Below are positions 31,980-54,241 of a stretch of 64,000 bases of DNA, piece by piece. The notes beneath the pieces were generated by a model. That model was not told where the DNA came from, made no database searches, and saw nothing but the letters and a program-made list of their open reading frames with translations. Within the stretch, counting starts at the first letter, position 1; each line of letters begins with the position of its first letter. This stretch comes from Saprospira sp. CCB-QB6 (GTDB lineage Bacteria; Bacteroidota; Bacteroidia; Chitinophagales; Saprospiraceae): contig NZ_CP116808.1 in the NCBI RefSeq assembly GCF_028464065.1, positions 310,001 through 374,000 on the forward strand, in the 5' to 3' direction. Position numbers and translations under genes: made by a program.

Positions 31980-31986
31980 GCCCAAT

Positions 31987-32182
31987 GCGTCTAGCAGGGC
32001 CAAAGGCCCGCAGGCTGAGGGGCTGTAGCAGGGCCGCCGAAGGCGGCAGACCAAAGGCTTTTGAAGCAAAGCGAAAAGCCTGCAGGGCCGAGCGACCCGA
32101 CCAACGGGAGCCGACGCAGCGAAGCAAGTAACAGCGAGCTGCGAAATGGCCCGACCCGAGCGAAGCGAGGGGCAGCCCCAAA
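31987..32182 (-). repeat. GC-rich interspersed repeat, reverse copy
   Basis: It includes GCAGGGCCGCCGAAGGCGGC, CTGCAGGGCCGAGCGACC, the optional block ACCAACGGGAGCCGACGCAG and ends GGGGCAGCCCC. Between it and the start codon at 32274 there is about 90 bases of unremarkable leader. Confidence 0.85.
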
Positions 32183-32273
32183 AAATCAATCCTAAAATCG
32201 TTCTGCTCTGCGCCAAAATGACCATTCTTGCATCTTATAAGGTATAGATTCAATTCACTTAACTGCTATCCTT

Positions 32274-34472: not shown

Positions 34473-34475
34473 AAC

Positions 34476-34509
34476 AAAAAGGCCAGCTCTTTTCAGAGCT
34501 GGCCTTTTT
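34476..34509. terminator. Bidirectional hairpin terminator
   Basis: A perfect 14-bp stem (AAAAAGGCCAGCTC at 34476-34489 with 34496-34509) and loop TTTTCA lie between the convergent vWA gene and fabD, with A/T runs suitable for both directions. Confidence 0.88.
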
Positions 34510-34529
34510 TATCGGTCCAAAATGCGCAA

Positions 34530-35411: not shown

Positions 35412-35439
35412 ATAAAGGTTGAGTTATTTCTAATTTTAT

Positions 35440-35672
35440 TTTGGGGCTGCCCCTCCCTGCGGTCGGGTCGGGCTGTGTACTCCCGTTGGTCATCGAACTG
35501 GCGCCCCTATAGGGGCTGGTTGTCGCAGCTCGCTGTTACTTGCTTCGCTGCGTCGGCTCCCGTTGGTCGGGTCGCTCGGCCCTGCGCCGCCTGCGGCAGC
35601 TGGGTCTGGCCCTTCGGGCCACTGCTGTCCATCCCTCAGCCGAATTGGCCCCTGCGGGGCCAATTGGACCAG
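35440..35672 (+). repeat. GC-rich interspersed repeat, forward copy with duplicated block
   Basis: A long copy: GGGGCTGCCCCTCCC, GGTCGGGCTGTG, then a CTCCCGTTGGTC block that occurs twice (about 35480 and 35558), GCTCGGCCCTGC, GGGTCTGGCC and CCATCCCTCAGCC. It abuts the stop codon of the Mrp gene. Confidence 0.85.
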
Positions 35673-35675
35673 CTG

Positions 35676-36770
35676 CTATGACTGAACATTCACCATAGAA
35701 GTGGGCGGCATGGCCTCATTTCTAATGGCTACCTGCCGCAAGGTCTGACGAGCCACATTCATAAAGGCTTCTTTGGTAATGGGGTCCTCATTCAAAATGG
35801 CGGGCAAACCATTGTCTCCCCCCTCACGGATGGCCTGCACCAAGGGAATCTGGCCCAAAAGTACGCTATTCGCTTCTTTGGCCAATTGTTTTCCCCCTCC
35901 TTGCCCAAAGATGTAGTACTTATTATTGGGCAATTCGGCTGGCGTAAACCAAGCCATATTTTCCACCACGCCCAAAATGGGAACATTCACATTGGGCAGA
36001 CGGAACATATTCATGCCCTTGACCGCATCGGCCAAAGAAACCTCCTGTGGAGTAGTGACCATCACGGCCCCCGTTACGGCTACCGTTTGGACCAAAGTGA
36101 GCTGCACATCTCCTGTACCCGGAGGCAAATCAATAATCAAATAATCAAGCTCAGGCCATAAGCAATCTTGAAAAAACTGCTTGATGATCCCCGCCAAACG
36201 AGGCCCACGAAGCACTACCGCTTGCTCAGGCTCAATAATATAGCCCATAGAAATAGAAGGAATTCCATATTTCTCAATAGGGACAATCTTAGGCTGCCCA
36301 TTGATGTCCTTAATTCTAGGCCGCTGCTTTTGCAAACCCAACATGGTTGGCAAAGAAGGACCATAAACATCCGCATCCATAATGCCCACTCTAGCCCCCA
36401 AAGCCTTTAGGCCTAAAGCTAAGTTGAGTGATACTGTGCTTTTTCCTACACCCCCTTTTCCAGAAGCTACGGCAATGATATTCTTAATCTGAGGTACAAT
36501 AGAGGTCGGGGCCGTTTGGACCACCGTGGTTTTTACATGCACATGCACCTCCGCCTCAGGAAAAACCGAATTAACGGCCGCTATACAGGCAAAGTTGAGG
36601 CTGTTTTTTGTCCCTGCATCCATATTGGCCGGCAGGAGTAGACTAAAACTGACGTTCTTCTCATCAGTTTCGAGCTGCTCCACCATCTGGGCCGAGATAA
36701 TATCCTCGCCTGACTTAGGATCTTTTACCTCCCGGAGCGCCTCGATAATTTTTTGTTTATTCAGTTCCAT
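35676..36770 (-). CDS. Mrp/ApbC-family P-loop ATPase (iron-sulfur carrier type)
   Basis: A 364-residue cytoplasmic protein with an N-terminal MIP18/DUF59 domain (about 1-85) and a ParA/MinD-like ATPase. The deviant Walker A is SGKGGVGKST (103-112), followed by MDADVYGPSLP and IIDLPPGTGDVQLT. Family members carry and transfer Fe-S clusters through a conserved C-terminal CxxC. Here the equivalent stretch reads VENMAWFTPAELPNNKYYIFG and contains no cysteine. From memory this is usual in Bacteroidota members, so cluster binding must use other ligands or be absent. It is divergent from the ion-channel gene. Confidence 0.9.
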   Translation of the reverse strand: MELNKQKIIEALREVKDPKSGEDIISAQMVEQLETDEKNVSFSLLLPANMDAGTKNSLNFACIAAVNSVFPEAEVHVHVKTTVVQTAPTSIVPQIKNIIAVASGKGGVGKSTVSLNLALGLKALGARVGIMDADVYGPSLPTMLGLQKQRPRIKDINGQPKIVPIEKYGIPSISMGYIIEPEQAVVLRGPRLAGIIKQFFQDCLWPELDYLIIDLPPGTGDVQLTLVQTVAVTGAVMVTTPQEVSLADAVKGMNMFRLPNVNVPILGVVENMAWFTPAELPNNKYYIFGQGGGKQLAKEANSVLLGQIPLVQAIREGGDNGLPAILNEDPITKEAFMNVARQTLRQVAIRNEAMPPTSMVNVQS

Positions 36771-36833
36771 AAAATGAACGCTTTTTTAGATGACTGGCTT
36801 TTGCTATCTTCAGGCAAACGCCTCCCATCTGAA

Positions 36834-36841
36834 TATGTTTG
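36834..36841 (+). promoter_or_regulatory. Putative -7 element for the ion-channel gene
   Basis: TATGTTTG matches TAnnTTTG and lies 37 bases before the start codon at 36879. No well-placed -33 element is visible. Confidence 0.4.
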
Positions 36842-36878
36842 ACAAAAGGGGGCTCAAAACTACGCAACAAAAATCAAA

Positions 36879-37712
36879 ATGAAGAGAACAGAGCGCCCCA
36901 AAAATTGGGCAGCTTGGCGAGAACGCCTGCATGTAATTATCTTTGAAGCCGATACCCTCGCTGGAAAAACCTTTGATGTCTTGCTCCTAATTGCCATCTT
37001 TTGTAGTGTTTTGGCAGTTTCTCTAGAGAGTGTCCAAGAGTACCAAAAGGATTATGGCGCCCTATTTTATGTCTTGGAATGGGTCTTTACTATTTTCTTT
37101 AGCCTAGAGTATATCCTCCGTATTGTCGCCGTTTATCAAGCTAGACGCTATGTCTTTAGTTTTTTTGGCCTAGTTGATTTATTGTCCATTTTGCCCACTT
37201 ATCTGGGCCTCTTTTTCCCTATTTCTGGGGGCTTATTAACGGTGCGAGCCCTGCGCCTCATCCGCATTTTTCGGATTTTCAAGCTAGGAGGCTTTCTCAA
37301 TGAGGGCAATCTCCTCTTGGGCGCTCTCTACCGCTCTAGGGCCAAAATTACTGTTTTCCTTAGCTTTATTAGTTTGTTAGTGGTCGTTTTGGGCAGCCTG
37401 ATGTACCTAATTGAGGGACAGGCTGGCTCTGGCTTTACCTCTATTCCCCGCAGTATTTACTGGGCCATTGTTACCCTAACTACCGTAGGCTATGGCGATA
37501 TTGCCCCCGCCACCCCTTTGGGCCAATTCGTCGCTGCCCTCATTATGATTTTGGGCTATGGCGTGATTGCGGTCCCTACGGGCATGGTTACAGCCGAAAT
37601 CATCCAACAAGAAAAAGGCGCCGCCCCTAGCACCCAGGTTTGCAAAGCTTGCCTAAAAGAGGGCCATGCTCAAGATGCTATTTATTGTAAATATTGCGGC
37701 GAAGAATTATAA
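36879..37712 (+). CDS. Voltage-gated potassium channel with C-terminal zinc ribbon
   Basis: A 277-residue six-helix cation channel. S1 to S3 lie at about 30-110. The S4 voltage sensor reads RALRLIRIFRIFK with arginines at 123, 126, 129 and 132. The pore helix leads to the potassium filter TVGYGD (202-207), and S6 is at about 215-240. A short linker then ends in a four-cysteine zinc-ribbon-like tail (Cys255, Cys258, Cys270, Cys273) instead of a cyclic-nucleotide or RCK domain. It would conduct K+ across the inner membrane on depolarisation. The tail may bind a metal or assist assembly; this is inference. Confidence 0.9.
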   Translation: MKRTERPKNWAAWRERLHVIIFEADTLAGKTFDVLLLIAIFCSVLAVSLESVQEYQKDYGALFYVLEWVFTIFFSLEYILRIVAVYQARRYVFSFFGLVDLLSILPTYLGLFFPISGGLLTVRALRLIRIFRIFKLGGFLNEGNLLLGALYRSRAKITVFLSFISLLVVVLGSLMYLIEGQAGSGFTSIPRSIYWAIVTLTTVGYGDIAPATPLGQFVAALIMILGYGVIAVPTGMVTAEIIQQEKGAAPSTQVCKACLKEGHAQDAIYCKYCGEEL

Positions 37713-40072: not shown

Positions 40073-41041
40073 ATGTCTTATAAAATCCTCATCCTCACTG
40101 ATCCTAGTCGCCATAGCGCGACCAACTCGCTTTATGGTTTGGCTAAAACCCTTAGACAACACCCTAAGGTAGCGGCTGTGCATGTAGCGAGTAGAGCTTT
40201 GGCCCAAAATGCCCCTTTTTTCTATCAGATGAGCAGCCAGCAACTGCAGTTGGCAGAAGTAAAAGCGGACTTTGCCTTTCAGGAGGATCAAAGTTGTTTT
40301 GCGCCTAGCTTTTCGGGCCAATTGAGTGATTATGATTTTATTTTTCTTCGTCTGCCCCGTCCCCTAGCCGATGGTTTTTTGGAGTGGTTGGGGCAGATTT
40401 TTCCAGAAGAACGAATTATTAACCGCCCTTCGGGGATTTTACAAACCAGCTCCAAAGCTTTCTTGCTAGAGATCGCGGAGCATTGTCCGCCTATGGCGCG
40501 GATTCGCTCTTTGGCGGAATTAGAAGCCTTTAAGGCTCGTTTTCCGATTGTGCTCAAGCCTTTGCTCAACTATGGGGGGCAGGGCGTTTTGCGCATTCTC
40601 GATGATTATGTTTGGGAGGGCAACAACAAGCAGCCCTATACCGAATGGGCCAGTCAGCAAAAAGAGCTCGATTATTTGGGGATGCAATACCTAGAGCGAG
40701 TAGCCGAGGGCGACAAGCGAATTGTGGTTTGCAATGGTCAGGTTATCACGGCGGCCATTCGTTTTCCGGCCAAAGATTCTTGGATGTGCAATGTGGCACA
40801 GGGCGGGCATGCCGAAGCCAGCCAAGTAAGCCCTGAAGAAGAAGCAATGGTGGCTGCCCTCCACCCTATTCTTCAAGAAAAAGGCATCTTATTATATGGG
40901 CTCGACACCTTAATGGGAACAGATGGCAAACGCCTACTTTCCGAACTCAATACCTTGAGTATTGGCGGCATTGCTCCTGCTGGAGAAGCGGCCCTACAAG
41001 CTAGTATTGAGGGACTTATTCACTACTTTGATTCTATTTAA
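40073..41041 (+). CDS. ATP-grasp ligase, glutathione-synthetase/RimK-like
   Basis: A 322-residue soluble ligase with ATP-grasp motifs in the normal order: INRPSGILQTSSKAFL, VLKPLLNYGGQGV (Lys162, glycines 168-171), EGDKRIVVCNGQ (Asp214, Arg216), a WMCNVAQGGHAE segment like the glutathione synthetase NLAAGGRGE, and the metal-binding SELNTLSIGG (Glu291, Asn293). It would join an amino acid or amine to a carboxylate. It starts 3 bases after the previous stop codon and its own stop codon overlaps the next ATG by one base, so the three genes are translationally coupled. True glutathione synthesis would also need a gamma-glutamylcysteine synthetase, which is not seen. Confidence 0.8.
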   Translation: MSYKILILTDPSRHSATNSLYGLAKTLRQHPKVAAVHVASRALAQNAPFFYQMSSQQLQLAEVKADFAFQEDQSCFAPSFSGQLSDYDFIFLRLPRPLADGFLEWLGQIFPEERIINRPSGILQTSSKAFLLEIAEHCPPMARIRSLAELEAFKARFPIVLKPLLNYGGQGVLRILDDYVWEGNNKQPYTEWASQQKELDYLGMQYLERVAEGDKRIVVCNGQVITAAIRFPAKDSWMCNVAQGGHAEASQVSPEEEAMVAALHPILQEKGILLYGLDTLMGTDGKRLLSELNTLSIGGIAPAGEAALQASIEGLIHYFDSI

Positions 41042-42000
41042 TGAAAGCACCTAAAATTAAGCAACTCGATTTGGACCTTTTAGAAAAAGGGAAGGTCTAT
41101 CGTTTTTGGCTCACGCTCACCTCCGATGGTTTTGGAGATCCTTTGGCCATTCCCATTTTTGTGGCTCAGGGGGCGAAACCTGGGCCTATATTGGGCTTGA
41201 GTTCAGCTATTCATGGAAATGAAATCAATGGGATTCCCGTTATTCAGCATTTGTTTAATGAATTGGACCCCACTAAGCTTTCAGGGACCATTTTGGCTGC
41301 GCCTGTCGTCAATATTCCATCTTTTTTCCGAAAACGTCGTCGTTTTCAGGATAATGTAGACCTCAATCACATCATGCCGGGCAAAGCGCGAGGCAATGTG
41401 AGTCAGGCCTATGCCTATGCTTTTTTCCACAAATTTGTGGAGCAGGTTGATTATCTCATTGATTTTCACACAGCTAGCTTTGGTCGGATCAACTCCTATT
41501 ACATTCGGGCCGACATGAGCAATCAGGTCAGTGCTGAAATGGCTCGCCGGCAGAACCCACAAATTATTTTGCACAACCCAGCCGTTAATGGCACCTTAAG
41601 AGGGGCAGCGGAGGCGATAGGGATTCCCGCTATTACCTTAGAGTTGGGCAATCCCAATGTTTTTCAGCCGGCCATCATTGCCCAAAGTCTAGAGGGCGTT
41701 TACAATGTATTGGCCATGCTCAATATGTTAGAGCATGCCTATGAGTCTCAGGAGGGAGCCAACATTCCCGTTTGTCAGTCCTCCAAATGGATTTATACTC
41801 GCAAGGGGGGGCTCTTGCATGTCCACCCCAAAGTAACTGATTATATTGAAAAGGGGCAGCTCATTGCCCATCAGGAAAACATCTTTGGCGATCGCATTGC
41901 AGAATATCGCGCTCCACAGGCAGGAATTATTATTGGCAAAAGTGTGAGTCCAGTCAATAGTTCTGGCGGCCGCATTTTACACCTAGGTATTTTGGAGTAG
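41041..42000 (+). CDS. M14-family succinylglutamate desuccinylase/aspartoacylase-like hydrolase
   Basis: A 319-residue zinc amidohydrolase-like protein. The zinc ligands are visible as His58 and Glu61 in SAIHGNEINGI and His143 in DFHTASFG; Glu201 in TLELGNPN is the likely general base. A C-terminal barrel domain (about 240-319, lipoyl/hammerhead-like KGGLLHVHPKV) is typical of AstE/AspA relatives. Family members remove N-acyl groups from amino acids. Placement behind two ATP-grasp proteins suggests it hydrolyses or recycles the amide the ligases make, or unmasks their substrate. No arginine-degradation (ast) genes are present. Confidence 0.83.
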   Translation: MKAPKIKQLDLDLLEKGKVYRFWLTLTSDGFGDPLAIPIFVAQGAKPGPILGLSSAIHGNEINGIPVIQHLFNELDPTKLSGTILAAPVVNIPSFFRKRRRFQDNVDLNHIMPGKARGNVSQAYAYAFFHKFVEQVDYLIDFHTASFGRINSYYIRADMSNQVSAEMARRQNPQIILHNPAVNGTLRGAAEAIGIPAITLELGNPNVFQPAIIAQSLEGVYNVLAMLNMLEHAYESQEGANIPVCQSSKWIYTRKGGLLHVHPKVTDYIEKGQLIAHQENIFGDRIAEYRAPQAGIIIGKSVSPVNSSGGRILHLGILE

Positions 42001-42005
42001 TTTTT

Positions 42006-42250
42006 TTGGGGCCTGCCGCCAAAGGCGGCCGGGCCCTTGCAGGGCTCGCAGGGCTGCTCGGCCCTGCGGGCTCATTTCATTTCGCCCTTGGTCTGCCGCT
42101 ACGCGGCCCCCTTTCAGGCCCCTAGGCCTGCGGCCCTTCGGGCCTGTAGGATGTATATATATACCTATGGGTTGAAACCCACAGCAACCAATAAAGCCAA
42201 ACTAAGCGCAATAAAAATGAGCCGATGGTTTCAACCATCGGCCCATAATG
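42006..42250 (+). repeat. GC-rich repeat joined to a two-hairpin repeat (copy A)
   Basis: Positions 42006-42144 are a forward GC-rich copy (GGGGCCTGCCGCC head, GCTCGGCCCTGCGG, TTGGTCTGCCGC). From 42145 a second repeat family begins: TGTAGGATGTATATATATACC, the hairpin ATGGGTTGAAACCCA, then GCCGATGGTTTCAACCATCG. This second part recurs at 43070 and 45151. Confidence 0.82.
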
Positions 42251-42637
42251 AGTTGTAATAAACAGCAAACAAGGGCTTTAGCCCGCTCTTTGCATAGCCC
42301 CACAACCATGGGCTGAAGCCCATGGCCCAAAACTGCCCAGCCGCCAAAGAAGAAAGCACGGACTGAAAAATGTTTATTTATGGAGGGTTTCAACCTACAG
42401 TCTTGGCCGAAGGCCAAACGGCCACAACAAGCCCTTTAGGGCGTCTTCGACGACCAACGGGAGTAACCGATGTGCATGCAAGGCTGCACTACAGGGGCAG
42501 CGAAGCAGATAACTAATGAGCTTTGCGAACATGGCTATTCCACTGAGTAGCTGCACGACTGTGAGACCGCATCTAAGCCCATTTTTGATGAGACTGTCGG
42601 CAAAATGGACGGCGCAGTAGTAGCGAGCAGCAACGCT
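42251..42637. repeat. Degenerate repeat debris between the ATP-grasp operon and the toxin locus
   Basis: No gene is seen. The stretch holds a perfect palindrome CCATGGGCTGAAGCCCATGG near 42306, a half-copy of the GC-rich repeat (about 42405-42520, with GGCCAAACGGCC and ACCAACGGGAGTAACC) and unplaced sequence up to the small immunity gene. Confidence 0.6.
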
Positions 42638-42967: not shown

Positions 42968-43052
42968 TATTTTATTTTTGCATCTTTTAATATTTTTTGT
43001 GCCATTCGTTTATAATAATCTGGATTAGCAAAAACCCTAATCCCTTTTATGG
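42967..43052 (-). pseudogene. 3' remnant of an RHS-type toxin tip
   Basis: On the minus strand, 28 codons read PIKGIRVFANPDYYKRMAQK and then ILKDAKIK before a TAA that overlaps the next ATG. The frame is AT-rich and gene-like, and it loses this character abruptly at 43053, where the repeat copy B begins. It is read as the C-terminal end of a toxin domain whose front was lost. It is too short for the toxin family to be named. Confidence 0.5.
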
Positions 43053-43335
43053 GCCTGCGGCGGCTTCGCCGCCTGTAGGATGGATATATATACCTGTAGG
43101 TTGAAACCCACAGCAACAAAAGCGGCCAAACTAAGCACAATAAAATGAGCCGATGGTTGAAACCATCGGCCCATAACTAGCGAGACTAATTTCTTGCGTC
43201 TAGAAGGAGCGAAGCGACTGGCCTAGCGATGGTAGGCAGTGCGGTGAAGCCGCAGACCAAGGCCGTCAGGCCGCAGGGCCGAGCGAATAGCGAGCTGCCG
43301 AACGTAGCGCCCGCCGAAGGCGGGAGGCCCCAACT
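43053..43335. repeat. Direct-repeat copy B bordering the orphan toxin cassette
   Basis: Positions 43053-43206 contain GCCTGCGGCGGCTTCGCCGC, TGTAGGATGGATATATATACC, the GGTTGAAACCCACAG arm and the CCGATGGTTGAAACCATCGG hairpin. They are nearly identical to 45136-45290 in the same orientation. Positions 43207-43335 add a reverse GC-rich copy ending GGCGGGAGGCCCC. Positions 43336-43408 show nothing recognisable. Confidence 0.88.
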
Positions 43336-43408
43336 ACAAATCAATATAGATAGAATAACTGGCCGAGTATGGACGTGAACTAGTACGGATGAACGCCTAT
43401 CCCAAATA

Positions 43409-43852
43409 TCACCAAATACTATCCAAAATCTTTTCCCACCATTTTTTTTTGTACTTAGGAGTCCCTAGAATTTTTTCCTGTTGTTTCTCTGATAGGCTAT
43501 TTAAAGGTCTTTTTGTCCAGTATGGTAATTTCACATTTGGCTCAACTTGCCCCCCAAAATCCTTTAAGACCTTTAGTAAATGTCCCTCTAGATAATATAA
43601 CCTAAAAGTAGTAGTATAAAGTTTTAACTCATTATTATTGGTGTCTACTTCAACTTCCACTGAAGAAGAACCTTCAAGATAGATATCAACATAATAATTC
43701 TTTTCTTCTAAATCTAGAGAACTGAAATCAAAGTCAGTACCTGAATTTTTTAACAGAGCACTTCGGATTTCTTTTATTTTGGGTAGATTATTGAATGAAA
43801 CAATATATTTTAAATGCATTGGCATTGGAAGACTATTTAACAGTTTTATCAA
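43409..43852 (-). CDS. Putative immunity protein for the orphan RHS tip
   Basis: A 147-residue predicted soluble protein of no recognised family. It has an N-terminal strand-helix pattern (LKYIVSFNNLPKIKEIRSALL), an acidic middle, and a basic tryptophan-rich end (KYKKKWWEKILDSIW). Its start codon lies inside the last 20 bases of the orphan toxin reading frame, and such overlap is common for toxin-immunity pairs. An immunity role is inferred from that arrangement. It shares its last four residues, and 13 bases of DNA, with the 42638 protein. Confidence 0.55.
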   Translation of the reverse strand: MIKLLNSLPMPMHLKYIVSFNNLPKIKEIRSALLKNSGTDFDFSSLDLEEKNYYVDIYLEGSSSVEVEVDTNNNELKLYTTTFRLYYLEGHLLKVLKDFGGQVEPNVKLPYWTKRPLNSLSEKQQEKILGTPKYKKKWWEKILDSIW

Positions 43853-44990
43853 AAAAATCTCTTAATCCATAAGGTGATCTAGTTCCATGGGGAGGTTTTA
43901 TATAAAAAGTTTTTGGAATATTCATGCCTCCCTTATTCATTAAATCTATACAATATGTCGTGCAGTTTTTCCCACCAAGCAATCCAAACATATTATAGTA
44001 TGGTGGTCGTAAAACACTTTTTCTAGCTGCAGCCTGTATGAGACTAAACTGTTTGGGATGTATAGATATTTCTTGCCAAGTATATTCTTCAAATTTTTTT
44101 GCACTAAATGGTCGATTTCGTGCCAACCCTGGCCTGAGCGTAGCAGTAAGAATCGGATTATCACGACCTTTATAAATTAAATCAAAAACTTCATCATCTA
44201 ATTGTAAAGCGCTATGCGCCTGTCGAGAAGAACGCCCCGTTTTTGTTCCTAGTTTAATTATTTTTTTAGTTCCTGATTGAGCTAGATCCGTAAAAGAAGT
44301 AGGAGGCAAACTATAACCTGTCGCATATTCAACAGCTTGATCTGCCACTTCATCAGCAATCTCACGTGCAACATTTGAAGACATTCCACTTGCAGCTATG
44401 ACCAGCCCTGGTCCTGCTACTACGGCAACGGTCCCCATAGTGCCTACAACACTGCTTACCCCTCTTCCATAATCACTCGAATAGATGCCACTATTCCAAC
44501 TCGCCCTCCACTTGTCAGCATAAGGTGAATTCGGATCATAAATTGGTTCGTACCGTCCTTCTGCAATACGCGATTCTATATTGTTGACAATTGGGTTATT
44601 TCCCCTTTTTTTCAGCTTTAGGTAAGTATTGACATCCGCTTGGGTATAGCCTATACTTCTCATATACTTGATAAACGCAGCACGCTTTTTAGCATGTTTA
44701 CCTGCTTTGCCTTTTGTAATAGCTGCTCTCTCGGTCCAGCCACCATATTCCTCATCCCAAACTTGCCCATTGGCTTCTCTATGTTCAATTTCTTCCTCTG
44801 AACAGTCAGGACATCCCGAATCTGCCCCTAAAGGATCTACATAGTAAATTGGGTTGCCATCAAAAGCCGAATAAGGAGACATTCCTGCATGAATCACAGG
44901 GTCCGTAGACCACCAGCGGCCTATGCGCCCATCTAGCTCTCTAAAGTATGTAGTATGATGCCCTGAGCCAATTTCTGGGCTTTTGCGCAT
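43833..44990 (-). CDS. Orphan RHS C-terminal toxin module
   Basis: A 385-residue reading frame beginning with the last part of an RHS core (YFRELDGRIGRWWSTDP, then FDGNPIYYVDPLGA), followed by about 330 residues unlike the main RHS protein. A hydrophobic glycine-rich stretch lies at about 180-205. The distal domain shows AHSALQLDDEVFDLIYKG and later GGKNCTTYCIDLM, a His-then-Asn-Cys order as in permuted NlpC/P60 (LRAT-like) papain-fold enzymes. It has no signal peptide or obvious promoter. It is read as a stored toxin tip that could replace the main tip by recombination through its 5' homology. Whether it is translated as it stands is unknown. Confidence 0.7.
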   Translation of the reverse strand: MRKSPEIGSGHHTTYFRELDGRIGRWWSTDPVIHAGMSPYSAFDGNPIYYVDPLGADSGCPDCSEEEIEHREANGQVWDEEYGGWTERAAITKGKAGKHAKKRAAFIKYMRSIGYTQADVNTYLKLKKRGNNPIVNNIESRIAEGRYEPIYDPNSPYADKWRASWNSGIYSSDYGRGVSSVVGTMGTVAVVAGPGLVIAASGMSSNVAREIADEVADQAVEYATGYSLPPTSFTDLAQSGTKKIIKLGTKTGRSSRQAHSALQLDDEVFDLIYKGRDNPILTATLRPGLARNRPFSAKKFEEYTWQEISIHPKQFSLIQAAARKSVLRPPYYNMFGLLGGKNCTTYCIDLMNKGGMNIPKTFYIKPPHGTRSPYGLRDFFDKTVK

Positions 44991-44994
44991 TCCA
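44899..44994 (-). repeat. RHS-core homology block of the orphan tip
   Basis: These 96 bases match 47210-47305 inside the main RHS gene at 94 positions. Similarity ends abruptly on the 5' side of the cassette (after 44994) and decays on the toxin side. It is the presumed recombination target. Confidence 0.92.
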
Positions 44995-45010
44995 AAAAAC
45001 GAGGTCTAAA

Positions 45011-45455
45011 GATACTATTTTTTGGGGCCTGCCGCCTGCGGCGGCCGGGCCCTTGCAGGGCTCGCAGATCTGCTCGGCCCTGCGCCAGCAAGCTGGCTGG
45101 GTCTGCCGCTACGCGGCACCCTTGCAGGCCCCTAGGCCTGCGGCGGCTTCGCCGCCTGTAGGATGGATATATATACCTGTAGGTTGAAACCCACTGCAAC
45201 AAAAGCGGCCATACTAAGCACAATAAAAATGAGCCGATGGTTAAAACCATCGGCCCATAACTAGAAAGACTAATCTCTTGCATCTAGAAGAAGCGACTGG
45301 CCACAACAAGGCTGAAAGCCGCAGTTCGACGACCAACGGGAGTAACCGATGTGCAGGGGTGGCCGAAGGCCAGACCAAGCGGGCGCAGCCCGCGCAGGGC
45401 CGAGCGAACAGCGAGCCCCGAAACGTAGCGCCCGCCGAAGGCGGGAGGCCCCGCT
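45011..45455. repeat. Direct-repeat copy C and flanking GC-rich repeats
   Basis: A forward GC-rich copy (about 45019-45135, GGGGCCTGCCGCC head) leads into the two-hairpin repeat copy C (45136-45290), nearly identical to copy B at 43053-43206. A reverse GC-rich copy follows (about 45290-45453), ending GGCGGGAGGCCCC as copy B does. No gene is credible in 44991-45465. Confidence 0.88.
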
Positions 45456-45465
45456 TAAAAACCAA

Positions 45466-46041
45466 CTACCAATCTGGCTGGCTGTATAATTTACCAACAT
45501 CTAGTTTGTAGTATACCCTATTTATCTCTTTAGCAGAACTTGAATTAGGGTAGTAATCAAATTCTATTCGCCAATAATAATCATCTGTTTTATATACGAC
45601 TATCTTATCCTCAAATATTTTCGCCCATTCTATAATATAATATCCACAATACGCATAGGTATAAGTTTTGATAATTAACTCCCCATCCTTAATTAAATAA
45701 TAACCAGCAAAACCATTAACCATATTATTGGCCACCTCATTATTTAGACTGTCTAATCCTGTACTAGCATACAACTTACCGTCTGCAAAAAAACGCATAA
45801 AATAACATTTTGGTGAATCATAAATAGCTGGATCATCACATTCATAATAAATCGCATTTGTATCTATCAAATCTTTGGGGTAAAGGTCCTCTGCTTTGGT
45901 CACATACGAATCCTTAAACTTTCGGGGAATTTGATTTCCTTTAGCTGTAGTCGTTGCAGAACAAATAGCGCAAGAATATTGCAGCAAAAGCAGCAAGCCA
46001 ACTAGGGCCAGTTGATATGAGCGGTAGTTCTTCTTTTTCAT
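45466..46041 (-). CDS. Putative exported immunity protein for the main RHS toxin
   Basis: A 191-residue protein with an N-terminal export signal of about 23 residues ending QYSC. Cys24 might be lipidated, although the lipobox is not canonical. The mature part is tyrosine-rich with many beta strands (MRFFADGKLYASTGLDSLN, IKTYTYAYCGYYIIEW). It starts 78 bases after the main RHS stop codon on the same strand, the position expected for an immunity gene. No family is recognised. If exported, it would protect the periplasm or outer membrane from the RHS tip. Confidence 0.5.
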   Translation of the reverse strand: MKKKNYRSYQLALVGLLLLLQYSCAICSATTTAKGNQIPRKFKDSYVTKAEDLYPKDLIDTNAIYYECDDPAIYDSPKCYFMRFFADGKLYASTGLDSLNNEVANNMVNGFAGYYLIKDGELIIKTYTYAYCGYYIIEWAKIFEDKIVVYKTDDYYWRIEFDYYPNSSSAKEINRVYYKLDVGKLYSQPDW

Positions 46042-46119
46042 AAAAATGATTTTGTTATACGATCAGAGCGGTGGCAAAAATTTAGGACGGCATAAGAGAA
46101 AATCTGCCCCGAAAAGCAC

Positions 46120-49100
46120 TTAGGGATGCATATTAGCGGTATGGTCAGCAGATATTATTACACCACGTCGGTTGTATTCAAACAATGGTGTCTTCACTAC
46201 ATATGTATGAATAAAGTGTTGGAACCAACCATCTGTGAGTATATCTACAGTAACGCCATTAGTTCGAATAAAGGTCGAAGCTAGATTTAGAGATTGATGA
46301 TATGGTGTTTGACTAAACATAATTTTCCCTGTAATTGGGTCTATAATTAGTTTTCTTTTGTTTCGTTCAATATCTATCTCAAACTTTCCAGTAAAGCTTT
46401 GATATCCTCCTTCATATATCCTTCCCCGAATCCTTGCTATAAGGATCAGTCCTCCAGTCCAGCCCCAATCTGTCTGACTGGCTATCCAGTCTAAATCTCC
46501 TTTGTTCAATATACCCATTTTTTCCAATCTTGATATGGCAAGACCAAGTAATGAAAAGAGCTTCATGTCATTATTGGCATAAAAAGAGAAATTTCCAATT
46601 CTAGCTCCAATAATCCCCTGATTGGTAAGCTCGCTAATAGCTGTATTATAAGTCCACATATGTCCAAAAGTAGCTGAATAACGCTGTTGATTTGGAATTG
46701 CAGACGCTGTCATATTGTTCAATGTATAAATATCCATTACGTCTCCCGTCCCCATATCACTACCAAAAGTTCCATGAAACGCTAATGTTGCATCCATTCC
46801 AATAGGTTGCTGTTCAGAAGTTCCCAACCCTCCGGAATACACACTCATTGACAAATCCATAACTCCCTGCACGTTTTCTCCTCGTAAACCAGCGCTTATG
46901 GTTCCACTAACATGGAATGGTATTTTCTTTTTGTGGCTAAGTCCTACCTTTAGTTTTAATTGAGCTCCTAATACCCCCTTAACAGGAGGGCCAGCTCCAG
47001 CAGCCACTTCTGCCACATAACTCTTCGAAAAAGAGGTAGAGCTAATTTCCGTTGATACAGCAACTTTATATTCAGATTCCGTTATACTAGATTCACTCCA
47101 AGTGGGACATTCTAGACCAGGACTAACTACACTTGCCCCAGAAGCATCCGTATAATAAATCGGATTTCCATCAAAGGTATTATAGGGCGATTGATGTGGG
47201 AAGGTAATGGGGTCCGTAGACCACCAGCGGCCCATCCGCCCATCTAGCTCTCTAAAGTATGTAGTATGATGCCCTGAGCCAATTTCTGGGCTTTTGCGCA
47301 TTCCATTATGGCCATATTCTGGAGGAATAGCCCCAGGAAAGTTCCGGCCAGGCATTTCCCAACCGTAGGCATAAGCATCTGTAGCCGATAATACATCTGC
47401 AAGATAGTAAGTTGCTACTGTTAAGTCTGTTCCCATTGGAAGCTTAATATCGCTAATTTCCATCCGCAAATCTCCTCGGAAATTGCTTAGCGCATAACGA
47501 TGATAGCCTCTTTCGTTTTGATACTGTACAGGAGCTGCGCTATCTATATCACTATAAAACGCTATGCCTTCTCTTCTCAATGTCGCCACGCCCAGTTCTT
47601 GCGTACGCAAATAAACTGCTGTCGCAATCTCTGTCGTCACTGTTGAGTAGGGCGTCCAAGTGGGTTTGGCTTCATACTCATAAGTAGCTTCCAATGCCCC
47701 TGAAGCACCTCTTAGGTAAACGGTATACTGCCAGTAATCAGCATTTTCAGCTTGTATAATCTTAAGTGTTCGATGGCCATCTAGGCCATAGCGATAAGAC
47801 ACATCGGCCTTGCCACTAGCTGTAGTATAATCTACCTTTGCTAACTTACCTGAAGGCGTCCAATGCAACTGTTCTACATCTTCTCGTTTGTTGGATAGCA
47901 AAGAGCCATTAGCATCATACTCATAGTTTTCTGTGGTCGATCCATATAGTTCTCCATCTATCAACTGAGTACTAACGCCATCTTCAATTTTTAATAGCTG
48001 GTTATTTTTGAAATCTAGTGAATTAACGGTCCCCCCCCCATTAACTGATTGATAGTGATATCTAAAATCATCAATCAACTGGGCATTGCCTTCATAGCGC
48101 TCCAAGCTAAGTAAGTTCCCATTAGCATCAAAGCTATAATTAGTAGCCCATTTCATACTTGTGGGGTTAGCAGACCAAGGTGCATTCGTCGATAGACTAG
48201 CGGCAGTAGCAGTAGCATTGCGAACAGCAGTCAACCGATTCAATTGATCATAACGGTAGCTCTTCCAGATGACATCCATAGCCTCCTGCTGCCCACTCAC
48301 ATATTCAGGGGCAGTCATAGACAACACTACAGAACTAATGTTTCCATTAAAGAGTTCTTGCTCATAATCAGTGGGTAAGTTGAGCATAGCTGCTCTTTGT
48401 CCGTTTGCGGTAGTTGATATTGCCTGATAATCATTCTGATGGTAATGTACGCCATAAGAAAAGACATCTTCTGCCACTCGGGCATGTATATCTGCAATTT
48501 GATGAATATCACTTAGAGCTTGGCCATCTCTACCGGGGTCTCGTCTTTGCCCCGAACTGGGATCAACCACAGACAAAGCATTTCCATTCATTGACTTTAG
48601 TTGTCCATTTAGTGTATAGACATAATCTAAGCCCTGTACTTTATGTTCGCCTAACTCTACCCGTCTTAATGGACCATGTAAATAATATTCATAGCTAGTC
48701 TCCTCATTCCAAATAAATCCATTAACGGAAGAATAGGCTTTTTTGAGGCGGTTATTTGCATCATAGCTATAGCGGAAAGAAAGCTCATCTTTCTTCCCTT
48801 TCTGATAATTTACTTCATGAACAGCTCCAGAAATAAGATCAAAATCGTACTCCCAGTTTTTCACTGTTGAATAAGCCAAGTAGCTATAATACTGTCCAAA
48901 ATTTGTGACATTCCCCATCACATCATAGCTATACAGCTCTTCCTCTTCAATATTTACCCCATCAGGCAAATACTGTCGGGCACTTACTCTGTTTCTTAAA
49001 TGCTGTTGTTGGCCATCTAAACTACTGACTAGAGTAGTTGCTAGAGGCTCATCAAAATAGATTTTACGTACCTCTGTTTTTTGCCAACCTTTATAGGTTA

Positions 49101-52100
49101 CATAGTAATTGGGGAAATTTTGATTGTAGATTTCATTTTGGTCGGTTAACCACTCTTGAGTTATATAATCTGCTATAGACTTTCCAATAGACTCCTCTAC
49201 AACTCCTGTTTCTACAGTCCGCCCTAAATCATCATAAATGATATAAGAAGCCTTGCCATCAATTTCTTGTTGGGCATCTTGAGAAAAAATTGGACGGCCT
49301 AATTTATCGTAATAAAGCTGCACTACTCCTTCATCTGGAGAACTATTACTAACCACCTGATTATATGCATTGTATACATAATGAGAAGGCATACTATGCT
49401 CAGGCAAGCAGTTCGCTGTAAGCGTACTTGCATTAGCCCGTGCAGCATCTACGGCGGGATAATTAGCAGGGTCTAAAAAGTGAACTCCTGCAGGAGGAAT
49501 GGTTCGCTCCAAATTCCCTACAGCATCATAATAATACAGTGTATAATGGTAAGTTCTATTTGTAGAAGTCATGGTCATCCGATCTTCTACTGCAGCACAT
49601 TCCGCAAGTAATTGACTACGAAGCGCTCTAATTTTTTCATCAATAGCAGCTTCTACGGCTAGATTTGTATAATGTGTAGAGAGAGCAGCTTCTTGTTCTT
49701 CACAAGATATAGTTTCATCATCTGCCCAACATTGAAGTTCTTCTGGTACAGCTGCAATTGTGCAAGAATTATAAGTTCCTCCTGTCGTTAATAAATCAAT
49801 AAATGCCTGATAATCTTCTATATCTGTGAATCCACCTACTGGTGCTTCTGATTCACAATAATTTGACCAACACTCCACTATATCTCCATCCAAAGCTAAA
49901 CCAGGATTAGCCTCATTGAGTAAATTGGCAACAGCAGTATAAGGAGGTGTTCCATCCAAAGCTAAACTAGAATTAGCTTCATTGAGCAAATTTCCTACAG
50001 CAGTATTAGAAGGTGTTCCATCCCCCACTGTCGTTAATAGATCATTGATTCCCTCACAAAAACATACTTCTATGGTTGTTGCTTGATCATTACAACTAAC
50101 TTCTATAAAGTTTTCGGTAACAATAGTCTGAAGACTGCCAGAATAATATCTATCTAGTGCCAAATTTAAGGTAACATACTCACTAGCTTGATTAGAAACG
50201 GTCCCTGTTGATGGGTCATAAATAGATTCTGTAGCAGGAACTCTCACTTCAACTACAATTTCATCAGAGGTTCCTCCTTCTCTTACTGTTGCTTGTATAT
50301 TAAAGTTATTGGCTGTATTTATACTAGACAGCTGAGCATCCAGATTTGCCTGAATGGTCGGAATTCTATCCCAATAGGTTCCTGCTGAATAATAAACATC
50401 AAAGGCTGAAGACAAATCATAAACTTGCGGGCTAGTCACTCCTTTTTCAATAAAAAGGGTATATGAACCTGAGGCATTTGTTAAGGATTCTGAGATGACT
50501 AACTCTGCACTTAAATAACCACAAGCAGGTAATACTGCATTAGCATTTGCATAATCATTAACTGCATCAATGTTTAAGCTACCATCAGTATTTGTAAATG
50601 CTCCTGCTACATTTGCCTCTTGACTTCCTCTTTGAGGAATTCTAATTACGTAAAAAGAACTTGTAGAATACTGATGAGAGGCTAAACCTAGCTCACTGTC
50701 ATCATCAGACAAAAACGAGCAATTAGCTGCAGTTGCTGCAAAGTAGTTATCAATCTCCTTATCTCTAATTTGACGGTAATGTTGTTTAAAGATTTCCCAA
50801 GCTGTAACATCTGGATCTGCTGCAGCAATTCCTTCTGCAACCTCCCAAAGCGTTTGCCCAGATCCACCATAATTACAGAGCTCTGATCCAATTTCAGTAA
50901 CAAGGTCATATGGCCCTAAATCAAATTGATTTGGGTCTATAATAGGATCTCCTACAAAAAGAGGGTGGCTTTCCCAATCGTTACTTCTCATTTGTTGACA
51001 AGCTACTGGACTTAACCAATCACCATTAGCATCTAGAATCCCTGCAGCCTGTGCCTCTGCTTCTGTCATTGTCATAAAACCAGCTGTACCATAAGCATAG
51101 TCTCTCGCCAATACATAAGGTGAGTTTTCAGCACAAAAAGCCTCATAAATACAGTACTCTGGATGTTCTGTAACTAAAATATCTTCCCAGCCAGCTTGCC
51201 AATTATCTCGTACCTCATTCCAGTTTTGTGCTGAGGTTAATGTTCCTGTAGTGGGGTCTATATAGTCAAAGTCATAATTTCCCGCTCCAGTAGTTAAGTT
51301 ATGTGTTAGCCAAAAATTATTCGCTGTATTAGTGCTGTTAATGGCTAAATTATCAAAATACTGTCCCTCAGGGCTCATATCTGCAGCCAAGATGTTATAT
51401 GTTGCCTCACAATAGATATCTGATGATGACAAATTACTTTCTATGGTCTCATTACAGCCTAAATCAACTACAACTTCATATTGACTAAAATCAATACAGT
51501 CATCTGTAGTAGGATCTACACCTTGTTGGCCTCCAGCTATATAATCCTGATACTCTTGATATTGCTGCTCTAATTCTGTTCTAAAGTCAGCCAGTTGAGT
51601 ACTCACATTTACTAGGCGAACTGATTTCTCAATAAGGTAACTTCCTATTGGGAAGTCTGTTCCAGTAGTAATCGTAAAAGTAACTGTTGTGCTATTTATT
51701 GACGAAAGTGCATTCATGTCACTCAACACTACAGCCGTTTGCCCTCCTAAATTAACATTACTTACCCCTGCTGTAGTATTAGCCAATATATACTCATTCG
51801 AAGCATCATCATACAACTTAATCTGTAATTCATACTCGCAATCTCCTGTAAGACAGGGCGAGCTAAATTCTCCAGGATTAAAAGTATATTCAAAAGTGTA
51901 AGTCTCATTGAGACTCAAGGGCGTAAATGGTCGACTAGATCGCCATACAACATCATCTCCATCTATTTCTTGTCTATTATGCTGTTGTAGATCAAGATCG
52001 ATGGTTTCAACCTGATTGAGGTAGCTCGCATAATGATAATTAGCTAAATTTAAATCATCTAGCATGGCGGTCCCATTATGCTCTGGAGCACCACCTACTA

Positions 52101-53739
52101 ATGCAGTTGCAATAACTTGCCCAGAAAGCGTCTCATAAGAAACAGAAACTTGACCATTTTGGTCAATAACTGCGGTCTTTCGATAATGCTCGCTATAGCC
52201 CACCTCGGCACCAAATAGTTTATCTAACTCTCTTTGGTCAACCGTTCCATAAATATATTTAACTCCATGACCGCCATCTTTGTTATACGTTTTTCCTACT
52301 CCATAACTCTCTTTTATCCGGCCCTGATTATCAAAAACAGATTGAGCATAAAGCGCCCCCTCTCCATCGGGAGTATAGGCCCCTAATTCATTATTGGCAT
52401 GAGCTTGATTGGCAGAATAATACTGAGCTGTACCAGAAGTCGTTGCCAATAAGGCCGGAGCAGAACCACTATAATGTTGGTCCAAATCAAAATCTACTGC
52501 CGAATAAGGCTTATTCGTCTGAGCAGATATATTATAATTTTCATAATACTTTAATTCACTAGAAAGATCCGGGCTGGGACTAGCCGCTATAGCCAAAGCT
52601 TGACGTCCCTCAAAATCATAAACCGTTTCTCCAATTAGTGCTACTTTTGTATCATTATCTTTAGTTACAGATTGTCGTAAACGTCCTGTTCCATCTGCAA
52701 AGCTCAAAAGCTCTGTCCGCTTTCCATTTTCAGCATAAGCTGCCGAATATAGCCAGTTTTTTGCTGCCGAACCATTTGTGCTTCCATCATAAGGAGGAAT
52801 ATCTCCATTATCGTGTACAAAAATAAAAGGTCCTTCCATCCAAGCAGTATAAACTGCTTGCTTTTTTGTTGTAGATTGACCAACCGCTCGCACTCTAAAG
52901 AAAAGCGCTCCTGACTCATAAGGGAGTTCCAAGGTATAGCGATTTCCTTTCAAATTTACTCGGCTAGCCTTTTCCCAACCATATGCTTCCACGTAATCTC
53001 TGATGTCACCACCAATCAACTGATCAGAGATATGCATCCATTCAAAATCATAAGAAGTCGCCCCTTCTAAAAAAGGCCAAACATAAGTTGTTTGTCGTTT
53101 AGTAAGGTCTAAAGATTGACGAGTTAAGGCAAAACTTGCCCCTAAATCTAAGCTGAAATAGCGTTCAATCTCTACTCTCGTTTCCAAGTAGAGATCTTCA
53201 AAAAAATCAACTCGAACCGAGGGCTCTTGCTGAAGCGTCCCTCCTCGTTCTGCATAAGCAATAGATTGTATCTGAGCCACTACTTTATGAGCATTAGGCA
53301 CTCGAACACCAGCCTGATCTGTAAACACTTGATTATGTCCAGGCTCATAGTTAATCGTCAACGTCTCTAGTGTTGTGGGCAACGGATCTCCATTTGCGGC
53401 CCAACTATAGATTTTCACAACTACCTCATAGGTCCAATCATGAGGAAATACAATTCCATCGCTTCCTTCCCACTTCAGATTCACAAATGCATCAGCCTTT
53501 ACATTGGTAAATCGCTTTGATTGATCAAAAGCAGTAGCTCCTAGCCCCAAATCCTCCCAATCTGAGTTGGCCTGCATGTAGGTATACCAAATATCTTCGG
53601 TTCCTATTTGAGCCGTATTTGTTATTTGTGTACCATGCAACTCATTGGATAATGATGAGGTCTGTGCTTTAGCTGCCATTTGCCCTAAAAGACAAATCAA
53701 AATCACTAAAATGGCTTTATGTATACTTTGTATTTTCAT
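46120..53739 (-). CDS. RHS/YD-repeat giant protein with C-terminal polymorphic toxin domain (DUF6443-like)
   Basis: A 2539-residue exported protein with signal peptide 1-25 (ends AAKAQ). Beta-rich N-terminal domains (about 30-320) precede a DUF6443-like segment (about 325-480, FADGTGRLRQSVTKDND). Next is a long cysteine-containing insertion (about 620-1390), then YD/RHS repeats (about 1395-2190, LYYDKLGRPIFSQD, YELYGSTTENYEYDANGS-like units). The conserved core (about 2150-2199) is YFRELDGRMGRWWSTDP to FDGNPIYYTDASGA. The last 340 residues are variable and beta-rich with GHMWTYNTAIS and WGWTGG, faintly like the Bacteroidota toxin type 23 domains; the activity is not assigned. RHS shells encapsulate their tips and release them for killing. 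The delivery route is unknown. Confidence 0.85.
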   Translation of the reverse strand: MKIQSIHKAILVILICLLGQMAAKAQTSSLSNELHGTQITNTAQIGTEDIWYTYMQANSDWEDLGLGATAFDQSKRFTNVKADAFVNLKWEGSDGIVFPHDWTYEVVVKIYSWAANGDPLPTTLETLTINYEPGHNQVFTDQAGVRVPNAHKVVAQIQSIAYAERGGTLQQEPSVRVDFFEDLYLETRVEIERYFSLDLGASFALTRQSLDLTKRQTTYVWPFLEGATSYDFEWMHISDQLIGGDIRDYVEAYGWEKASRVNLKGNRYTLELPYESGALFFRVRAVGQSTTKKQAVYTAWMEGPFIFVHDNGDIPPYDGSTNGSAAKNWLYSAAYAENGKRTELLSFADGTGRLRQSVTKDNDTKVALIGETVYDFEGRQALAIAASPSPDLSSELKYYENYNISAQTNKPYSAVDFDLDQHYSGSAPALLATTSGTAQYYSANQAHANNELGAYTPDGEGALYAQSVFDNQGRIKESYGVGKTYNKDGGHGVKYIYGTVDQRELDKLFGAEVGYSEHYRKTAVIDQNGQVSVSYETLSGQVIATALVGGAPEHNGTAMLDDLNLANYHYASYLNQVETIDLDLQQHNRQEIDGDDVVWRSSRPFTPLSLNETYTFEYTFNPGEFSSPCLTGDCEYELQIKLYDDASNEYILANTTAGVSNVNLGGQTAVVLSDMNALSSINSTTVTFTITTGTDFPIGSYLIEKSVRLVNVSTQLADFRTELEQQYQEYQDYIAGGQQGVDPTTDDCIDFSQYEVVVDLGCNETIESNLSSSDIYCEATYNILAADMSPEGQYFDNLAINSTNTANNFWLTHNLTTGAGNYDFDYIDPTTGTLTSAQNWNEVRDNWQAGWEDILVTEHPEYCIYEAFCAENSPYVLARDYAYGTAGFMTMTEAEAQAAGILDANGDWLSPVACQQMRSNDWESHPLFVGDPIIDPNQFDLGPYDLVTEIGSELCNYGGSGQTLWEVAEGIAAADPDVTAWEIFKQHYRQIRDKEIDNYFAATAANCSFLSDDDSELGLASHQYSTSSFYVIRIPQRGSQEANVAGAFTNTDGSLNIDAVNDYANANAVLPACGYLSAELVISESLTNASGSYTLFIEKGVTSPQVYDLSSAFDVYYSAGTYWDRIPTIQANLDAQLSSINTANNFNIQATVREGGTSDEIVVEVRVPATESIYDPSTGTVSNQASEYVTLNLALDRYYSGSLQTIVTENFIEVSCNDQATTIEVCFCEGINDLLTTVGDGTPSNTAVGNLLNEANSSLALDGTPPYTAVANLLNEANPGLALDGDIVECWSNYCESEAPVGGFTDIEDYQAFIDLLTTGGTYNSCTIAAVPEELQCWADDETISCEEQEAALSTHYTNLAVEAAIDEKIRALRSQLLAECAAVEDRMTMTSTNRTYHYTLYYYDAVGNLERTIPPAGVHFLDPANYPAVDAARANASTLTANCLPEHSMPSHYVYNAYNQVVSNSSPDEGVVQLYYDKLGRPIFSQDAQQEIDGKASYIIYDDLGRTVETGVVEESIGKSIADYITQEWLTDQNEIYNQNFPNYYVTYKGWQKTEVRKIYFDEPLATTLVSSLDGQQQHLRNRVSARQYLPDGVNIEEEELYSYDVMGNVTNFGQYYSYLAYSTVKNWEYDFDLISGAVHEVNYQKGKKDELSFRYSYDANNRLKKAYSSVNGFIWNEETSYEYYLHGPLRRVELGEHKVQGLDYVYTLNGQLKSMNGNALSVVDPSSGQRRDPGRDGQALSDIHQIADIHARVAEDVFSYGVHYHQNDYQAISTTANGQRAAMLNLPTDYEQELFNGNISSVVLSMTAPEYVSGQQEAMDVIWKSYRYDQLNRLTAVRNATATAASLSTNAPWSANPTSMKWATNYSFDANGNLLSLERYEGNAQLIDDFRYHYQSVNGGGTVNSLDFKNNQLLKIEDGVSTQLIDGELYGSTTENYEYDANGSLLSNKREDVEQLHWTPSGKLAKVDYTTASGKADVSYRYGLDGHRTLKIIQAENADYWQYTVYLRGASGALEATYEYEAKPTWTPYSTVTTEIATAVYLRTQELGVATLRREGIAFYSDIDSAAPVQYQNERGYHRYALSNFRGDLRMEISDIKLPMGTDLTVATYYLADVLSATDAYAYGWEMPGRNFPGAIPPEYGHNGMRKSPEIGSGHHTTYFRELDGRMGRWWSTDPITFPHQSPYNTFDGNPIYYTDASGASVVSPGLECPTWSESSITESEYKVAVSTEISSTSFSKSYVAEVAAGAGPPVKGVLGAQLKLKVGLSHKKKIPFHVSGTISAGLRGENVQGVMDLSMSVYSGGLGTSEQQPIGMDATLAFHGTFGSDMGTGDVMDIYTLNNMTASAIPNQQRYSATFGHMWTYNTAISELTNQGIIGARIGNFSFYANNDMKLFSLLGLAISRLEKMGILNKGDLDWIASQTDWGWTGGLILIARIRGRIYEGGYQSFTGKFEIDIERNKRKLIIDPITGKIMFSQTPYHQSLNLASTFIRTNGVTVDILTDGWFQHFIHTYVVKTPLFEYNRRGVIISADHTANMHP
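47210..47305 (-). repeat. RHS-core homology block in the main gene
   Basis: It encodes the conserved GSGHHTTYFRELDGR region. It matches the orphan block at 44899-44994 at 94 of 96 bases, the only long identity seen between the two. Confidence 0.92.
49885..50016 (-). repeat. In-frame 66-bp tandem duplication inside the RHS gene
   Basis: TCCATC recurs at 49885, 49951 and 50017, marking two 66-bp units. They encode two similar 22-residue segments (TAVGNLLNEANSSLALDG and TAVANLLNEANPGLALDG). The copies already differ at several bases. Confidence 0.85.
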
Positions 53740-53849: not shown

Positions 53850-54238
53850 CTTTTTGGGGCTTCCCCTCCCTTTGGTCGGGTCGGGCTGTACCGCAGCTCG
53901 CTGTTCGCTCGGCCCTGCGGCGGCTTTGCCGCCTTGGTCTGGCCCTTTGGGCCACTGCTTTCCATCCCTAAGCCAAGGCCCGATGGGCCTTTTAAGGGAG
54001 TGTCAGTTCGCGCTGCCATCCTAAGCCCTCATAAATTATGGTCTCTGGCTAGGGACAAAGCGGCCCTGCCGCCGAAGAGGAAAGCCAAAAGGAAACAGCT
54101 CGTTGAGCGGCCTAGCGATGGTAGGCAGTGCGGCAAAGCCGCAGACCAAGCAAAAACTTGTTTTTTGCGCAGGGCCGAGCGAATAGCGAGCTGCCGAACG
54201 TAGCGCCGCAAGGCCGCAGGCCGCTGCGGAGGCCCCAA
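53850..54238. repeat. GC-rich interspersed repeats, head-to-head pair
   Basis: A forward copy (53850-53995, GGGGCTTCCCCTCCC, GGTCGGGCTGTACC, GCTCGGCCCTGCGG, TTGGTCTGGCCC) and a reverse copy (about 54105-54238, GGCCTAGCGATGGTAGGCAG, CAGGGCCGAGCGAATAGCGA, GGAGGCCCC) lie upstream of the RHS gene. The remainder of 53740-54241 is short AT-rich leader without a recognisable promoter. Confidence 0.85.
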
Positions 54239-54241
54239 ACA

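Follow-up and report, generated by a model that had tools for sequence, protein, structure and literature searches.

We analyzed a 64,000-nt stretch of the Saprospira sp. CCB-QB6 genome (contig NZ_CP116808.1, positions 310,001 to 374,000; hereafter the window), which holds a large RHS gene, here called the carrier, and behind it an orphan frame that opens with a piece of the same RHS core. This locus is very probably a polymorphic RHS toxin system that keeps exchangeable C-terminal tips in store. The reading is carried by the anatomy of the locus, by tips that sit on a carrier in one strain and on an orphan in another, by tip-immunity blocks found behind different 5′ ends, and by cassettes with a low synonymous divergence (dS) between genomes whose chromosomes have diverged. 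The system is of a known kind, the orphan Rhs cassette, and is a large Bacteroidota variant of it. To that kind it adds a Bacteroidota case in which the stores are very large and dispersed, exchange is measured against the divergence of the chromosomes, and 5′ junctions recur with leaders in common. Lineages of this genus store and displace RHS tips and trade them with one another, and a tip that one strain has on a carrier can be in storage in another.

Carrier gene and orphan cassette in the window

The N-terminus of the carrier looks like a Sec signal peptide by inspection. The core profile TIGR03696 (Rhs_assc_core, NCBIfam) aligns to carrier residues 2133-2201 (profile positions 12-75 of 76, E 2.7e-6) at 27.8 bits, under the curated cut-off of 32.5 bits. 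The orphan matches the same profile at residues 9-55 (positions 28-75, E 1.3e-7) at 32.0 bits, also under that cut-off, and it therefore retains roughly the final two thirds of the core. Both matches stop at position 75 of 76, in agreement with an earlier interpretation of the window made from its letters alone (the sequence-only reading), which had placed the shared DNA on the conserved core; the shared part is the core end. The label “DUF6443-type” from the same source rests on a match below the Pfam cut-off: PF20041 reaches 16.9 bits on the carrier against a gathering score of 27.8 (E 0.0078). Weak profile matches of the carrier to ETF_alpha and CrpP were judged to be chance. The carrier also contains a 66-nt direct tandem duplication (window 49885-50016, copies 86% alike).

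DNA self-comparison of the window reproduced the reported match between carrier and orphan at 94 of 96 positions (98% identity, two differing positions). With a 131-base query at E <= 0.001, only those two places were found in the window genome and no third copy of the shared core stretch. DNA identity is confined to the 96 bp, and differences jump directly after. That an unrelated domain follows, as had been claimed, holds for the tips, called T1 on the carrier and T2 on the orphan; about 25 codons directly past the 96 bp still look homologous by inspection, and the proteins are unrelated beyond them. The orphan is thus a core fragment fused to a different tip, as expected of an orphan module. 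Each tip also has its own small gene behind it, as first noticed: I1 behind T1 and I2 behind T2. The I2 frame begins with a TTG inside the orphan frame and has an in-frame ATG at 43825, 7 nt past the toxin stop. The whole T2-I2 block (43272-45158) recurs in S. grandis Lewin with 96.7% identity over 1905 bp, and each of its ends lies in a GC-rich repeat.

The T2 tip had no match in Pfam, NCBIfam, or PADLOC-DB, and none among PDB sequences at E 1. Its last 165 residues matched one of 395 genomes of the phylum, namely its own, and its AlphaFold model has a mean predicted local distance difference test score (pLDDT) of 36.9. An NCTTYC motif in T2 might presumably be read as papain-like, a guess that we do not claim. 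A weak Pfam match of I2 to R-HINP1I was judged to be chance. Coordinates of all features are given in Table 1.

Table 1. Features of the RHS locus and its surroundings (window coordinates)
Feature	Position	Strand	Basis or remark
I3, immunity candidate without toxin, 109 aa	42638..42967	-	By position only
T3, remnant of a further tip (inferred from position)	42970..43050	-	Frame end cut by GC-rich repeat; stop adjoins ATG of I3
GC-rich intergenic repeat	43051..43345		Holds 3′ end of shared 1.9-kb block
I2, immunity candidate for T2	43409..43852	-	147-aa frame; same place behind T2 in Lewin, 99.3% identical
Orphan tip T2	43833..44990	-	385-aa frame; 95.8% identical in Lewin
Core fragment opening the orphan	44899..44994	-	94/96 to carrier
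Leader 1, 29 nt	44989..45017	-	Near-identical in 26 fragments
GC-rich intergenic repeat	45018..45465		Holds 5′ end of shared 1.9-kb block
I1, lipoprotein-like immunity candidate for T1	45466..46041	-	Relative behind T1 relative in DSM 2844
Carrier RHS gene, family A	46120..53739	-	2539 aa; open reading frame and TIGR03696 match
Last core codons and main tip T1, Ntox23-related	46123..47208	-	81% identical orphan in DSM 2844; Ntox23 via homologs
Core end in carrier, shared 96 bp	47210..47305	-	DNA self-comparison
Large upstream neighbour, 2391 aa	54966..62141	-	Relatives adjoin full-length family-B genes (window genome, DSM 2844)

The probable tip store across the genus

Six genomes of the genus were compared: the window genome (G000), S. 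grandis Lewin (G001), G002, S. grandis DSM 2844 (G003), G004, and G005. Counts of core places, relatives, and carriers refer to the genome stretches compared. The RHS-core system occurs in four of the six (G000, Lewin, G002, and DSM 2844); no core match was found in G004, which is in 320 contigs, or in G005, which is 63% complete. The core region gave 21 matches in its own genome at E <= 0.01, and 72 core matches in the four genomes merged into 68 core places. Three of these lie in full-length frames of more than 1500 codons, namely the family-A gene of the window and family-B genes in G000 and DSM 2844 (2300 and 2417 codons). The other 65 are fragments (17 in G000, 12 in Lewin, 2 in G002, and 34 in DSM 2844). 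One of the 12 Lewin fragments apparently belongs to the 3′ portion of a disrupted family-B carrier, seemingly divided between two frames of 1439 and 871 codons (Lewin 661684-668562, L093). Tails of 172-395 codons follow the core in 59 of the 68 places. The number of cassettes is somewhat below 68, due to pieces of single disrupted cassettes, short tails, and N stretches in DSM 2844.

Seven same-strand fragments follow the family-B carrier of G000, as far as 3,788 kb, and a second array of nine fragments at 113-134 kb has no carrier. At G000 3786548-3787943 (L092:8548-9943), the core of a leader-1 orphan is broken by a short stretch with stops, and similar broken cores are present in Lewin and DSM 2844. 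The window gene is the only family-A carrier found among the genomes compared; no full-length family-A gene was found in Lewin or DSM 2844, and the sole family-A core place of G002 lies in a 514-codon frame. Clustering of the tips gave 12 clusters with at least two members and 41 singletons.

Tips change context between genomes. T1, the carrier tip of the window, is an orphan in DSM 2844 at 4034535 (80% at the amino acid level), and the tip of the DSM 2844 family-B carrier is an orphan in G000 at 126217, with 99.6% amino acid identity over 222 residues and 92.8% over 2742 bp. The latter frame stops early, at 222 versus 395 codons, with the remainder in another frame. In a third carrier/orphan case, within G000, only the core and the first part of the tip are common (95.5% over 691 bp). 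Four pairs share the same tip-immunity block, 94-98% identical over 1.8-1.9 kb, behind different 5′ ends. The immunity gene moves with its tip, as seen for T2-I2 in Lewin and for T1 in DSM 2844, where the I1 relative behind the T1 relative is present as two separated pieces. One family-A orphan in Lewin retains residues 1-71 of the T1 segment (93%), followed by a different tip, an immunity candidate for that tip and, behind these, an I1 relative (88%), as expected if T1 had been replaced there. Together, the T2-I2 block in Lewin and the two carrier tips found as orphans bear out the orphan-tip arrangement that had been proposed. Nor is the orphan a fixed pseudogene of all relatives: both the window and Lewin have it as an open frame, and of the three other genomes with the system, one had it on the stretches compared.

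Twelve cross-genome tip pairs were linked, of which eight were measured, with pair 16-54 taken separately (dS 0.020). Seven of the eight have tail dS between 0 and 0.122: 0.018 (T2, Lewin), 0.122 (T1, DSM 2844), 0.013, 0, 0.103, 0.014, and 0. Non-RHS genes of the window have dS values of 0.294-1.903 to DSM 2844 (16 genes) and 0.423-0.616 to Lewin (3 genes), a baseline from which the family-B carrier itself (0.154 and 0.186) was left out. Because cassette dS lies below that of chromosomal genes, the cassettes crossed between lineages after the chromosomes had diverged, and exchange is recent.

A number of results weigh against an exchangeable store. The dS comparison does not include three cross-genome pairs of the loosely linked cluster 1; its eighth same-tip pair is distant and old (dS 1.63); one same-tip pair rises to 0.214 when the core is included; and dS is 0.257 to both Lewin and DSM 2844 for a neighbour of the family-B carrier that the baseline does not include. 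Between the window and DSM 2844, dS is higher for I1 (0.287) than for T1 (0.122), and the similarity of I1 to the lipoproteins behind two other Ntox23 proteins described below is weak (0.003 and 5e-5). In nine of the 68 core places the tail is shorter than 150 codons, and the store is thus broken in part. T2 belongs to no recognised toxin family, and it was not found on a carrier in any genome compared, which is the support that the sequence-only reading had asked for; tips on carriers elsewhere were found for T1 and one family-B tip. T2 shows 17 nonsynonymous and 4 synonymous changes between the window and Lewin, a ratio of 1.2, and no purifying selection is visible, which fits a silent store and also decay. 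I2 has one change in 147 codons in the same comparison.

Proposed mechanism, shared leaders, and competing explanations

We infer the following mechanism from these arrangements. The carrier is probably exported and probably delivers T1 as its toxin, with the lipoprotein I1 as the likely antidote that would neutralize it. The orphan frame would be an undelivered, presumably silent spare, in which core end, T2, and I2 form a single cassette flanked by GC-rich repeats. Through the shared core, homologous recombination could place the spare tip and its immunity gene behind the carrier core and so switch the tip, and recombination in the flanking repeats could duplicate or relocate entire cassettes, inside one genome or from one to another. 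Loss of the toxin from a cassette might leave the immunity gene behind, as may have happened to I3 (Table 1).

Many orphans share a 5′ end. Leader 1 (TASTAYCTTTAG...TTTGRAAT) stands directly at the core in 26 fragments: seven family-A short, three family-A long, and 16 family-B, of which one is rearranged at the start of the core. It has nine variants, and 22 of its 29 positions are invariant. An eighth family-A short fragment, DSM 2844 4034535, has a damaged leader. The leader-1 pattern, searched genus-wide with <=3 mismatches, gave 27 matches and none with the reversed control. The 27th match (G000 389520-389548, L144) has two mismatches and lies behind a GC-rich repeat with no RHS core, followed by short broken and lipoprotein-like frames; this site is perhaps a cassette that lost its toxin. 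A looser scan (<=9 mismatches, 21 stretches) gave 23 hits, none before full-length genes, and one in the control. A second leader, confined to Lewin and DSM 2844, occurs 11 times at two junctions with the core, and about 28 of the 65 fragments have neither leader.

Special conservation of leader 1 was considered and rejected. In a first comparison of 15 family-B places, diversity was 0.044 in the leader versus 0.192 in the core. In a sliding scan of 14 of these places, without the rearranged 3786579, diversity in 9 of 54 core windows was as low as in the leader or lower, and a conserved block spans about -45 to +240 with the leader included; the claim of special constraint was therefore dropped. 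Leader 1 as a translation start was likewise rejected for family B. Family-A short orphans have an in-frame ATG at the leader, whereas in family-B and family-A long orphans this ATG is out of frame or lost. Leader 1 partially matches the Bacteroidota -7 promoter motif, and no -33 motif was seen. On the simplest view, leader 1 was inherited as a 5′ end and spread with recombination. We consider it doubtful that the orphans are purpose-built cassettes with the leader as a promoter or recombination signal, such that a carrier would draw, integron-like, on about 10-35 tips (in the richer genomes) shared between species via the flanking repeats. The shared leaders do provide a definite sequence in which promoter or recombination activity can be tested.

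The likeliest competitor to the exchangeable store is that orphans are kept for their immunity genes, as protection from tip-bearing neighbours, with the tips as passive remnants seldom or never reused. We rate this somewhat short of an even chance. I2 is nearly unchanged while T2 shows no constraint, I3 persists after its presumed toxin was cut off, Lewin retains an I1 relative without the T1 toxin domain, and family-A fragments occur in Lewin, DSM 2844, and G002, where no family-A carrier was found. However, most places still have a long tail behind the core, and two tips are seen on a carrier in one strain and as an orphan in another, so reuse or displacement does happen. It is unlikely that the orphans are internal toxin-antitoxin modules, expressed from their own 5′ end and acting inside the cell. 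Such internal expression has been reported for Salmonella rhs (PMC7043789). The common leader directly before the core fragment and the in-frame ATG of family-A short orphans would suit such modules, but the ATG fails in the other two orphan classes, the leader is no more conserved than the adjoining core, and its match to the Bacteroidota promoter consensus is incomplete.

The orphan could also be a recent ordinary duplicate of the carrier 3′ end, drifting to loss, which we regard as highly improbable. The 94/96 identity with the local carrier speaks for it, as does the core itself, which differs from the local carrier at two sites and from the Lewin counterpart at five (first 8 nt excluded). 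However, T2 is unrelated to T1, and the same orphan, leader, and immunity candidate in Lewin contradict simple duplication. The orphan core is equally close (two differences) to a DSM 2844 orphan, so the local likeness is not special; the carrier is closer still (one difference) to another DSM 2844 orphan, and gene conversion between carrier and orphan cores in the window is possible but finds no support in these counts. The sequence-only reading had named an ancient full-gene duplication as a way to be wrong; no upstream remains of one were seen, and the orphan starts at a leader common to 25 other fragments.

Tip families, related systems, and flanking features

T1 itself has no Pfam match, and the carrier has no Ntox23 (PF15528) match at E 1. 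T1 homologs in two other genomes, L161 and L162, match PF15528 (Bacterial toxin 23) at 1.1e-10 and 3.9e-8, and the alignment of T1 with these two Ntox23 proteins keeps the invariant ND pair. T1 therefore appears related to Ntox23 toxins, through these intermediates only. The L162 protein has an RHS-like core end by inspection. Lipoprotein-like frames lie behind the Ntox23 proteins in both L161 and L162, which supports I1 as the cognate immunity protein despite the weak direct similarity. At L161:434-2825, in a genome of the same class, the Ntox23 protein lies directly behind two TssD (Hcp) genes, and this toxin type may also travel by a route like the type VI secretion system (T6SS). Three of ten family-B tips scanned scored above the Pfam cut-off, namely Phage_lysozyme on an orphan and Tox-PL-2 and PT-HINT on the two carriers; one further tip of these ten had weak M12-type matches. 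None of ten family-A tips scanned passed the cut-off, with DUF4347 just below it on one.

Neisseria MafB systems store alternative C-terminal modules beside a secreted toxin gene. These silent cassettes belong to a different carrier, and we liken them to the present system by description only. Closer are the orphan rhs-CT/rhsI and cdiA-CT/cdiI modules, in each of which a displaced tip is accompanied by part of the conserved region and by an immunity gene, found in arrays next to the carrier, with tips shared between carrier and orphan across strains (PMC3150448, PMC3967940). These papers describe orphan cdi/rhs modules and an array of 11 pairs (Poole 2011, PMC3150448), as well as recombination and use of an orphan in Salmonella (Koskiniemi 2014, PMC3967940). 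Those modules are from Proteobacteria and usually lack a translation start; in Saprospira, the family-A short orphans have an in-frame ATG and the family-B ones have none at the leader. Saprospira differs in having 34 fragments in one genome at many loci, in the many fragments that lie away from any carrier, and in a few recurring 5′ junctions, with shared leaders, that many fragments have. The switch proposed in Salmonella involves 522 bp of homology, compared with 96 bp in the window.

Cassette exchange had been called little described in Bacteroidota, which is only partly so: Zhang 2012 (PMC3482391) treats exchange in polymorphic toxins as general and lists Bacteroidetes. As in the polymorphic toxin systems of that paper, cassettes here replace the 3′ end of a constant gene, and left-over immunity genes occur. 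Its table gives Ntox23 in Bacteroidetes with RHS repeats and conserved ND, DxxR, and H; the median is three toxin domains per organism, and the text examined makes no mention of Saprospira. A literature search, with most subscription papers outside its reach, found no description of the Saprospira tip store. With stores as large as those of G000 and DSM 2844 (17 and 34 fragments), tip switching is testable by sequencing populations.

T3 and I3 look like a cut third cassette, in which the toxin nature of T3 is judged from position. Neither has a relative on the genome stretches compared, and a weak profile match of I3 to Cas8a was judged to be chance. The large upstream neighbour of the carrier has no Pfam family at E 1. 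Tested as half of a Tc-type B/C pair, it showed no recognisable partner domain, only its recurrence beside full-length family-B genes.

Further GC-rich intergenic repeats lie at window 42002-42284 and 53888-54240. The repeat ends, GGGGCCT...AGGCCCC, occur at 269 places in the window genome (<=1 mismatch; reversed control 0). The commonest words 3′ of tips are GC-rich repeat words (best 60 of 852), and a 30-nt trailer 3′ of tips occurs at eight places with <=6 mismatches. Window synteny with three genomes ends at 42145 (hits >=250 nt). In DSM 2844, the genes of window 20742-37709 come directly behind gene 41041-41997. On this gene order we rejected the idea that the RHS locus had inserted cleanly into an empty site; position 42145 is therefore a rearrangement breakpoint.

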